Below, piece by piece: positions 53,219 through 55,744 of a DNA stretch of 64,000 bases; the stretch's first letter is position 1, and each line of letters starts with the position of its first letter. The DNA comes from Oscillospiraceae bacterium (GTDB lineage Bacteria > Bacillota > Clostridia > UBA1381 > UBA9506). The notes beneath the pieces were generated by a model. That model made no database searches, was not told the DNA's origin, and saw nothing but the letters and a program-made list of their open reading frames with translations. The translations under genes and the position numbers were made by a program. The stretch covers positions 1-64,000 of the forward strand of contig SVJQ01000004.1 of NCBI GenBank assembly GCA_015068905.1, written 5' to 3'.

Positions 53219-53362
53219 TTACTTGTCCTGCTGCATTTGCTGCTTTTGGAGCAAATACTCATAAAAATCCCACACCAGCGCCTGACTTGTTTCGCTTAGA
53301 TCACTAATGTCTAAATACTTTTGTTCACCGCTTAAGATTGCCTGATACGTTTTTTCATCCAT
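53219..53362 (-). CDS. Small ORF of 47 residues downstream of the candidate RNA
   Basis: This ORF is too short for the ORF track. The minus-strand ATG at 53362 follows AAGGAGAG with normal spacing, and the TAA abuts a strong terminator. The product begins MDEKTYQAILSGEQKY and ends with a Gln-rich tail; it is acidic, without membrane segment or signal peptide, and likely helical. I do not recognise a family. The good ribosome site and the flanking terminators argue that it is real. It lies 20 bp after the terminator of the candidate structured RNA, so expression might depend on read-through. Confidence 0.6.
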   Translation of the reverse strand: MDEKTYQAILSGEQKYLDISDLSETSQALVWDFYEYLLQKQQMQQDK

Positions 53363-53381: not shown

Positions 53382-53411
53382 AAAAAAGTGCACCAACCGA
53401 AGTCGGTGCAC
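53382..53411 (-). terminator. Intrinsic terminator with UUCG tetraloop, after the candidate RNA
   Basis: On the minus strand GTGCACCGAC-TTCG-GTTGGTGCAC forms a 10-bp stem (one G-U) capped by a C(UUCG)G tetraloop and followed by TTTTTTATTTT. It is one-sided, so it ends a minus-strand transcript arriving from the RNA element. Confidence 0.88.
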
Positions 53412-53431
53412 GAAAAACACAAACTCCGATT

Positions 53432-53598
53432 GTTGCAACACAAATTGAATTAGGACGGGTATACCGTTACCATAAACCAATCTTCGGAATTTGCATTTTT
53501 ACCAAATTCAAGATTAGTTTATGATACGACTAATAAAGGTATATTATCCCTTACAGACAAAAAATACCCGTTCCTAACTATTCAATTTGTGTTGCAAC
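53432..53598 (-). ncRNA. Candidate rod-shaped structured RNA (6S-like architecture or unknown class)
   Basis: The 167 nt open and close with complementary arms: GTTGCAACACAAATTGAAT pairs perfectly (19 bp), then TAGGA and CGGGTAT continue the helix with two small bulges on the 5' side, about 31 bp in total. Inside is an asymmetric open region (about 40 nt on the 5' side with a mini-hairpin AAGG/CCTT, about 8 nt on the 3' side), then a terminal hairpin CATAAACTAATCTTGAATTTG pairing with its 3' copy (about 21 bp, 9-nt loop). A sigma-A promoter ends six bases before it and a terminator follows. No ORF or known aptamer is seen. The closing stem, bubble and terminal hairpin recall 6S RNA; a leader for the 47-residue ORF is the alternative. 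Confidence 0.6.
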
Positions 53599-53601
53599 TT
53601 T

Positions 53602-53630
53602 ATTGTATCACAAGAATCGACAAATTGCAA
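53602..53630 (-). promoter_or_regulatory. Sigma-A promoter of the candidate structured RNA
   Basis: On the minus strand TTGCAA and TACAAT are separated by 17 bp. The expected start falls on the first bases of the closing stem, as if the transcript were made to begin with the helix. Confidence 0.78.
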
Positions 53631-53932: not shown

Positions 53933-55666
53933 TTACTCTGCAAACGCATATTCGCCCATAAACAGAATTTCGCCGTTTGTGTTATCACGAATCACAAAGG
54001 TAAAGGGCTTATTATATTTTACCTCTATGGGTTCGGGCGGAAGGGCTGAGCCTGCCATACCGAGTGCTGTGACTGCAGCTGCCTCTGTTCCCTCTTCATC
54101 CACACTGATGTAGGTTTTATGGATAGCAGAGTCAATCCACATATTGCCGCTATCAAACATATTTTGAAATTCTGCATCTTTGGTAAAAGCTTTCGCGATG
54201 CCCATCACCTGCAGAATGTCATTGAGCCCCGTGCTGTATTCTACTTTAAATTTCGGCACGGATAAAGCCACATACTCAGATTCAAAGCTTGCATTTTTAA
54301 GGACTGCCTCAGGACTGAATGCCCCGTCACCCATCAAAAGATACATGCTGACATCCATATCCTCAAGCTTTTTGGTCTCAACATATTCCCCTTTTTCGTT
54401 GAACACATCTTCTCTTGTCTGATACGGCAGAGACACAATGGTCACGCCATCAGCTTCAGCATATTGCATCCAGGCGGTGCGATTCATAAAATCAATTTTA
54501 GTTTCCTGACCGTTTCTGTCAGTAAACACGTCCTCTGCAGTAGCACCTTTGTTAAACTCCTTGAGCCATCTGCCTTTAAAATAAACGGCATTGACAAGCA
54601 TTGCCCAGAAGTCTTTGTTATCTTCTGTAATAATAGCAGGAATTTTACCTGTTGTCTTCTCGTCTACCCAGCTATTTATGCGGCTCACAGCATTCTTATT
54701 GTTCACAATGTCAGCCGTAGCACCAAAAACCTCGGCAAGCTGATTGGTATAAGCCTGCGAAAAACGCTGCGCCGTCTTATCGCTGTTAATCCAGACAGAG
54801 TTGGCAACCTGAAGCCTCAGCAAGTCAGACTGTGCATATTTTGCAAGCATATTTTGAATTTCTTTATTATAAGCATCTAAATCCTCTACGCCCACAGCGC
54901 TCAGAATTTCATCACGAGTCTCGCCATCTGCGCCGTTTGCCGCCATTAAAAGCGCCATTTTGATAGATAATGGCGAGAACATATAGTTCTGATTCTCCGG
55001 CATCTGCGCGTTCATGTTGTCTGCAAAAGTAACGGCTACATTCCGGCTGCCTGTAATGGCGTCGTACATCCGAACCAAGGTTGCCACTGCCTGCTCTGCG
55101 GTATAGGCGCCCTTCGGGCTGAATCGGTTTTCACCCACGCCCTGCATAATACCCATGTTACAAACATTTTGCACCGCACTCATTGCCCAATCGGAAATCT
55201 CTGTTTCATCATCAAACAGATAATACACCTCGTGGTGTGCAAGGCTTGCAAATAAGCCGATTCTGTCTAAAATGGTTGCAGCCTCTTCACGGGTCAGCGG
55301 TGCCTTCGGGTCAAACAGTCCGTTGCCTTTGCCTGCAACAATGCCTAGGGCATATAGTGCTAAAACCTTTTCATTGTCAGTGTCCGCAAATGCCTTCGGA
55401 TAAACATTGCCGCCATGTCCGCCCATCGCCTTATCCAGCATATTATAGGCAAGCTCACAAAACTGTTCACGGGTAATATTTCGGGTCCAAGAGACCTTAA
55501 AAGCATTTGTAATCCCAAGGCTGTCCGCCTGTGCAACATATTCCATTGCCCAGTCGCTAGGGGCTCCCATGTCTCCGTGGCCAAGCTCAGCACTATCAGT
55601 TATTACCGGCACACTCGCTATAAAAAGCATAGCCACCATCAAAAACATTGATAACACTTTTTTCAT
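53933..55666 (-). CDS. Surface-anchored serpin with three SLH domains
   Basis: This protein of about 577 residues has a signal peptide (KKVLSMFLMVAMLFIASVPVI) followed by three SLH domains (about residues 25-75, 85-135 and 145-195, e.g. LTREEAATILDRIG and YTAEQAVATLVRMYDAI). These bind pyruvylated wall polymer. From about 205 to the end is a complete serpin (NYMFSPLSIKMALLMAANGADG; NAVYFKGRW). The hinge EEGTEAAAVTA fits inhibitory serpins; counting from it puts small residues (Ser/Ala) near P1, suggesting an elastase- or subtilisin-like target. The C-terminal PFTFVIRDNTNGEILFMG is typical. GAAAGGGG fixes the ATG at 55666, inside the track ORF. Confidence 0.93.
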   Translation of the reverse strand: MKKVLSMFLMVAMLFIASVPVITDSAELGHGDMGAPSDWAMEYVAQADSLGITNAFKVSWTRNITREQFCELAYNMLDKAMGGHGGNVYPKAFADTDNEKVLALYALGIVAGKGNGLFDPKAPLTREEAATILDRIGLFASLAHHEVYYLFDDETEISDWAMSAVQNVCNMGIMQGVGENRFSPKGAYTAEQAVATLVRMYDAITGSRNVAVTFADNMNAQMPENQNYMFSPLSIKMALLMAANGADGETRDEILSAVGVEDLDAYNKEIQNMLAKYAQSDLLRLQVANSVWINSDKTAQRFSQAYTNQLAEVFGATADIVNNKNAVSRINSWVDEKTTGKIPAIITEDNKDFWAMLVNAVYFKGRWLKEFNKGATAEDVFTDRNGQETKIDFMNRTAWMQYAEADGVTIVSLPYQTREDVFNEKGEYVETKKLEDMDVSMYLLMGDGAFSPEAVLKNASFESEYVALSVPKFKVEYSTGLNDILQVMGIAKAFTKDAEFQNMFDSGNMWIDSAIHKTYISVDEEGTEAAAVTALGMAGSALPPEPIEVKYNKPFTFVIRDNTNGEILFMGEYAFAE

Positions 55667-55744
55667 CAAAACATCCCCTTTCAAATAAGGTTTTCCTTTA
55701 CCTATGTTACCTTCATTCTAGCATATCACTTGATAAATTGCAAG

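Follow-up and report, generated by a model that had tools for sequence, protein, structure and literature searches.

A probable riboswitch-like transcription attenuator, built on competing tail strands, in gut Clostridia

We propose that the minus-strand element described in Table 1 acts in cis as a transcription attenuator. It would be a riboswitch-like leader that carries its own promoter and controls the 47-codon gene behind it. On the sequence evidence assembled here we regard this reading as likely. Across the family to which the element belongs, the leader probably controls whether a group of proteins, most of them exported, is produced. An earlier, sequence-only reading of the window (the whole 64,000-nucleotide stretch of DNA analysed) had described a promoter, a closing helix, an apical arm, a UUCG terminator with T6 and a following 47-codon ORF on the minus strand, and all of these are present in the sequence where it placed them. 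It preferred a dedicated small RNA and named a regulated leader as the alternative. We reverse that preference, because long copies of the element abut genes and because the tail can fold into an antiterminator that excludes the terminator.

Table 1. Parts of the element in the window (all on the minus strand) and the basis on which each was assigned
Feature	Position	Description	Basis
Sigma-A type promoter	53602..53630	-35 TTGCAA 53630-53625, 17-nt spacer, -10 TACAAT 53607-53602	sequence
Expected transcription start	near 53595	base of P1	predicted from promoter
Closing helix P1, 5' arm	53564..53598	19 uninterrupted bp 53598-53580, extension 53578-53564	sequence, folding, covariation
Closing helix P1, 3' arm	53432..53460	lower 19 bp 53450-53432	sequence, folding
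S1	53559..53566	U-rich strand UAUUUUUU, candidate partner of S2	sequence, swap test
Apical arm	53530-53467		sequence
P4	53487..53509	local apical hairpin, alternative to pseudoknot; GAAUUUG 53509-53503 : CAAAUUC 53493-53487	
S2	53486..53500	apical strand AAAAAUGCAAAUUCC, proposed anti-antiterminator, complementary to S3	RNAalifold, covariation, swap test
Segment A	53413..53432	CAAUCGGAGUUUGUGUUUUU; contains S3 and antiterminator 5' strand; about 23 nt between P1 and terminator	
Antiterminator 5' strand	53432-53423	CAAUCGGAGU, in segment A	
S3	53427-53413	GGAGUUUGUGUUUUU, just before terminator; 15 bases complementary to S2	
Intrinsic terminator	53382..53411	GUGCACCGAC-UUCG-GUUGGUGCAC + U6; hairpin 53411-53388, T6 53387-53382	
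Antiterminator 3' strand	53394..53403	ACUUCGGUUG, inside terminator	pairing-energy test
SD	53376-53371	AAGGAG, precedes ATG	
47-aa ORF	53219..53362	ATG at 53362; presumed controlled gene	

How might such a leader work? RNA polymerase would start at the base of P1, and segment A, the stretch of 23 nt that separates P1 from the terminator, would have two alternative partners. In the ON state segment A would pair forward with the 5' arm, the loop and the start of the 3' arm of the terminator, giving an antiterminator that lets the gene be transcribed. In the OFF state it would pair back with S2 over 15 bp, as a pseudoknot across P1, the terminator would form and transcription would stop. S2 would be an anti-antiterminator, since S2:S3 uses the same bases of segment A as the antiterminator hairpin and excludes it. 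This polarity, with S2:A as the OFF state, we infer from the overlap of the base pairs. If S2 were held locally, in P4 with GAAUUUG or by the U-rich S1, segment A would be released for the antiterminator. Termination is presumed to be conditional, with the balance set by a ligand, a protein or a physical signal. The two complementarities at the centre of this scheme had been missed by the earlier reading: S2 matches the pre-terminator stretch S3 over 15 nt, and S3 can form pairs with the terminator as well. A further possibility considered is a U.A-U triple helix in which S1, S2 and the tail would take part.

The 219-nt transcript of the window copy has a folding energy of -92.5 kcal/mol, compared with -43.8 +/- 4.1 for dinucleotide shuffles (z = -12, 0/200). 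The lower part of P1 is a perfect 19-bp inverted repeat with small interruptions farther inward, and what had been described as a 40/8-nt bubble is the divergent middle part, which carries a small U-flanked hairpin. The general order of parts in the family, from 5' to 3', is promoter, P1, a divergent middle with the U-rich S1, S2, the 3' arm of P1, segment A (about 23 nt), a UUCG-type terminator, a T-run, an SD and a gene. Two subtypes are distinguished, a long one of about 210 nt, to which the window copy belongs, and a short one of about 163 nt. Among 172 family copies the promoter spacer is 17 nt in 137, and the gap between the -10 box and the helix is usually 4-6 nt, a figure slightly biased by the small promoter bonus with which the helix starts of 114 copies were picked. 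At the level of sequence, the family itself, its promoter, P1, the S2:A and A:terminator helices, the terminator and the tight gene spacing can be considered established.

Covariation supports the competing helices. In the BLAST-derived alignment, 96.6% of the cells in P1, S2:S3 and the terminator are paired and 16 pairs are changed on both sides; none of 500 shuffles scored as high, and the best slid version reached 47.7%. The closing stem, whose covariation the earlier reading had made decisive for its proposal, thus does covary. For the S2:S3 helix alone 98.7% of cells are paired, with four pairs changed on both sides, and RNAalifold picked this helix unprompted; the P4 hairpin is paired in 86% of cells. 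The column pairs with the strongest covariation over 98 non-redundant copies belong to P1 and the terminator; next comes the antiterminator pair W-W'. This pair is 94% paired (z 15), a neighbouring G/A-C/U pair also covaries, and where W is changed between copies at least 90% identical elsewhere, W' is changed as well with pairing kept in 34 of 35 comparisons; the retrieval pattern restricts W to A or T in most of these copies, and the BLAST set, free of that limit, gives AU 19, UA 5 and other 1. In the short subtype, some copies of which were parsed imperfectly, partner-swap tests come out in favour of both S2:S3 and S1:S2. For the pseudoknot of the short copies the energy is -14.0 with the own partner and -10.1 with a swapped one, and control strand pairs show no effect; the p-values of the swap tests ignore relatedness, which inflates significance. 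The S1 window used for long copies also takes in the P4 5' strand, and S1:S2 is a candidate pairing supported mainly in the short subtype. Because the pseudoknot sequence of the long subtype varies little, support for it there comes from few changed pairs; in the window copy the S2:S3 duplex energy is -14.2. Each of the three helices of the proposed switch, terminator, antiterminator and S2:S3, either covaries or wins the partner-swap tests. A possible small hairpin, HA, formed by the P1 3' arm with GACWA, is not claimed, because its one covarying pair overlaps positions used by P1 and by the antiterminator.

Segment A can pair with the 5' arm, the loop and the start of the 3' arm of the terminator (CAAUCGGAGU:ACUUCGGUUG plus an inner helix), and each copy prefers its own terminator: in long copies (n=142) the pairing energies are -19.1 kcal/mol for the own, -17.0 for a swapped and -10.2 for a shuffled terminator, and in short copies (n=49) -18.5, -13.2 and -8.9 kcal/mol. 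In 93% of long and 86% of short copies the antiterminator equals or exceeds the terminator in stability; in the window copy the values are -19.8 kcal/mol for A:T and -17.0 for the terminator. Both in the window and in the family, then, an intrinsic terminator lies between promoter and coding start, and pairing energies and covariation point to a mutually exclusive antiterminator of comparable stability. The similar stability of the two hairpins, together with heterogeneous downstream genes that share no common pathway, would also suit a fixed, unregulated attenuator that sets low expression by constant partial termination. We consider this very unlikely, as a simple weak terminator would suffice for that purpose, and the conserved third competing strand and the elaborate P1 domain suggest a sensor.

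What lies behind the terminator favours a regulated leader. Of 139 long copies, 89 (64%) have an SD and start codon no farther than 40 nt from the T-run, compared with 49 of 410 other terminators in the same loci (12%; p 2e-31); at up to 130 nt the counts are 126 and 161. A spacing of 14-36 nt between T-run and start leaves no room for a second promoter, and these genes can therefore be reached only by readthrough. Proteins encoded downstream, when at least 110 aa long and scored heuristically, carry a signal-like N-terminus in 62 of 104 cases (58 of 342 control ORFs) and a lipobox in 27 of 104 (15 of 342), and BspA-type repeats occur in 19 of 134 downstream proteins. Signal-peptide proteins, lipoproteins and BspA repeats are thus over-represented among the downstream genes. 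These genes are otherwise diverse, and the lack of a common pathway, unusual for a metabolite riboswitch, counts against the leader reading; because of this heterogeneity no ligand can be inferred. The 47-aa ORF of the window has no Pfam match, and 60 related genomes yielded three weak relatives of it (40-48% identity). As these relatives lack the leader, a tie between the leader and this ORF family was rejected. A related-looking family of ORFs of about 40-60 aa, with a pattern of the type M.DYK.MY..L...V..AI..L..AQ...EE.Y, appears repeatedly right behind the leader (L010, L011, L020, L045, L048, L094 and L207).

The short subtype behaves differently. Of 48 short copies, 11 have an SD and start codon no more than 40 nt from the T-run, and 21 have none within 300 nt; about half have no start codon within 130 nt, and several end with a second terminator. 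Not every family member is therefore a leader, and the short, often gene-less subtype may act in trans. Such copies invite the broader idea of a free-standing trans-acting sRNA, running from promoter to terminator and aimed at RNAs or a protein through its U-rich or S2/S3 strands, with nearby genes incidental or on leaky readthrough. This idea, which we think rather unlikely as a reading of the element, draws on the compactness of the unit and on the many copies per genome, some in tandem, as well as on the short copies that have a second terminator in place of a gene. It accounts poorly for the start codons that long copies abut far more often than other terminators do, for spacings too small for another promoter and for antiterminators specific to each copy's own terminator. 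These points leave the dedicated small RNA of the earlier reading less well supported than the regulated leader that it had listed second. Behind gene-less short copies there is often a stretch that looks like the P1 3' arm and tail turned round, and then a second intrinsic terminator (G000 contigs C14, C9, C16 and C35, loci L193, L194, L196, L195 and L198; in G015, loci L200, L210, L211 and L213); such copies may represent either a relic or an sRNA form with two terminators. Tandem arrangements of two or three copies, comparable to tandem riboswitches, also occur (G015:C9, C16, C28, C59, C6, C19; G000:C1; G036:C17; G009:C22).

BLAST recovered relatives in 39 of 101 related genomes, and a covariance model was built from 25 of them. 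With this model the genome of the window yields 10 copies at E<1e-8, the window copy included. The model also has matches across the order (57 of 77 genomes, at most 21 copies in one genome) and across the class (63 of 292 genomes). It matched none of 299 other genomes in a phylum-wide sample, which doubles as a negative control. The exact tail pattern occurs in at least 120 stretches among genome contigs, mostly from gut Clostridia and Oscillospiraceae assemblies; some of the related copies were retrieved with a search pattern in which much of the tail is fixed, and tail conservation in that set is by construction. A phage or plasmid element was considered and rejected: plasmid records gave no match to the element, phage records one match, to the tail only, and viral contigs one exact tail-pattern match, and a viral scan with the short-type core gave no match. 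Could the hairpins merely resemble regulators, the element being a dispersed MITE-like repeat or the remnant of a mobile element? Such a view could appeal to the 21 copies in one genome, to the post-terminator stretches that resemble an inverted tail copy and to several short copies in G015 that have about 100 nt of downstream sequence in common. We judge it highly improbable nonetheless, since diverged copies retain the pairing of P1, pseudoknot, antiterminator and terminator, promoter and SD spacing are kept, and viral contigs gave a single exact match and plasmids none. Of the earlier warning that many scattered copies would point to a MITE, the scattering holds; the copies differ in sequence with pairing kept, unlike a recent MITE burst, although the G015 short copies do share flanking sequence.

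To which class of RNA does the element belong? Rfam 15 has no family at the element in the window, nor at its relatives in 20 loci of mostly long type and 18 of mostly short type, and together with strong covariation this bears out the earlier description of a structured noncoding RNA of unassigned class. A literature search returned no description of the family. The long rod with its internal open region, the sigma-A promoter and the terminator recall 6S RNA, and a divergent or second 6S RNA mimicking an open promoter had been suggested. We rate this as extremely improbable: the window copy is unmatched by the 6S model (RF00013) even at E<=10, several copies occur per genome, and the pseudoknot and antiterminator have no role in 6S. 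A canonical 6S RNA scoring 99.7 bits lies on contig C4:48261-48447 of the same genome, and for this reason the element is not the organism's 6S RNA. T-box leaders resemble the element in their length and in the competing antiterminator and terminator at their end, and they are found in the same bacteria. Unlike them, the element and its tested relatives have no match to RF00230, no tRNA-pairing antiterminator bulge or specifier was seen, and the T-box matches in these bacteria are separate elements. The chain of strands with alternative partners (1:2, 2:3, 3:4) is reminiscent of trp-type attenuators, but no leader peptide ORF was noticed in the element; attenuation through a leader peptide was rejected, since many copies have ACG in place of the AUG of S2.

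The closest likeness is to terminating riboswitches such as guanine, SAM-I and c-di-GMP-I, which also have a sensor domain in the 5' leader, an exclusive antiterminator and terminator, and a gene directly after. They differ in that the element has no Rfam aptamer match and its anti-antiterminator is a 15-bp pseudoknot from the apical strand to the tail. c-di-GMP-I riboswitches occur in several copies before surface and exported proteins, and in this the element can be likened to them. c-di-GMP is nevertheless an unlikely effector, because GGDEF proteins are not detectable in the (incomplete) assemblies of carriers G052 and G021, which have 7 and 4 copies. It was set aside as a ligand since several carriers are without detectable GGDEF proteins and c-di-GMP-I riboswitches occur separately; their model (RF01051) has no match at the element.

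Fremin & Bhatt 2021 (PMC8040213) reported a large set of uncharacterised candidate structured RNAs from gut metagenomes, some of them near terminators or palindromic. The candidates resemble the element in their gut-metagenome origin and in being, in some cases, terminator-adjacent or palindromic. The RNA family is uncatalogued in that it has no Rfam match, and it may overlap with this set.

What would such a leader mean for these bacteria? Tentatively, and with a little less than even confidence, we suggest a new riboswitch class or signal-gated attenuator in which a loop-to-tail pseudoknot serves as anti-antiterminator, and which would place exported proteins, lipoproteins and accessory genes of uncultured gut Clostridia under a common signal, at up to about 20 sites per genome. 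If so, gut Clostridia known mostly from metagenomes would share an unrecognised regulatory RNA before many surface and exported proteins, and the proteins under its control would be those that meet the host and neighbouring cells. Many leaders annotated as a terminator before a gene would be explained, and there would be a model to add to Rfam. The conserved three-way strand exchange leads to clear predictions that in vitro work could test with no need to grow the organism, and offers a handle on the signal.

Several other features of the window were observed. Just upstream of the element lies a serpin (Pfam PF00079) fused to S-layer homology domains (53933-55684, minus strand). A small protein with a match to the Anabaena sensory rhodopsin transducer family (PF07100; 52052-52423, minus strand) adjoins a gene judged by eye to be M24 peptidase-like. 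A Gut-1 RNA (RF01706; 56233-56307, plus strand) adjoins a tRNA gene downstream of groEL, and a glycine riboswitch aptamer (RF00504) occupies 1802-1908 on the minus strand.
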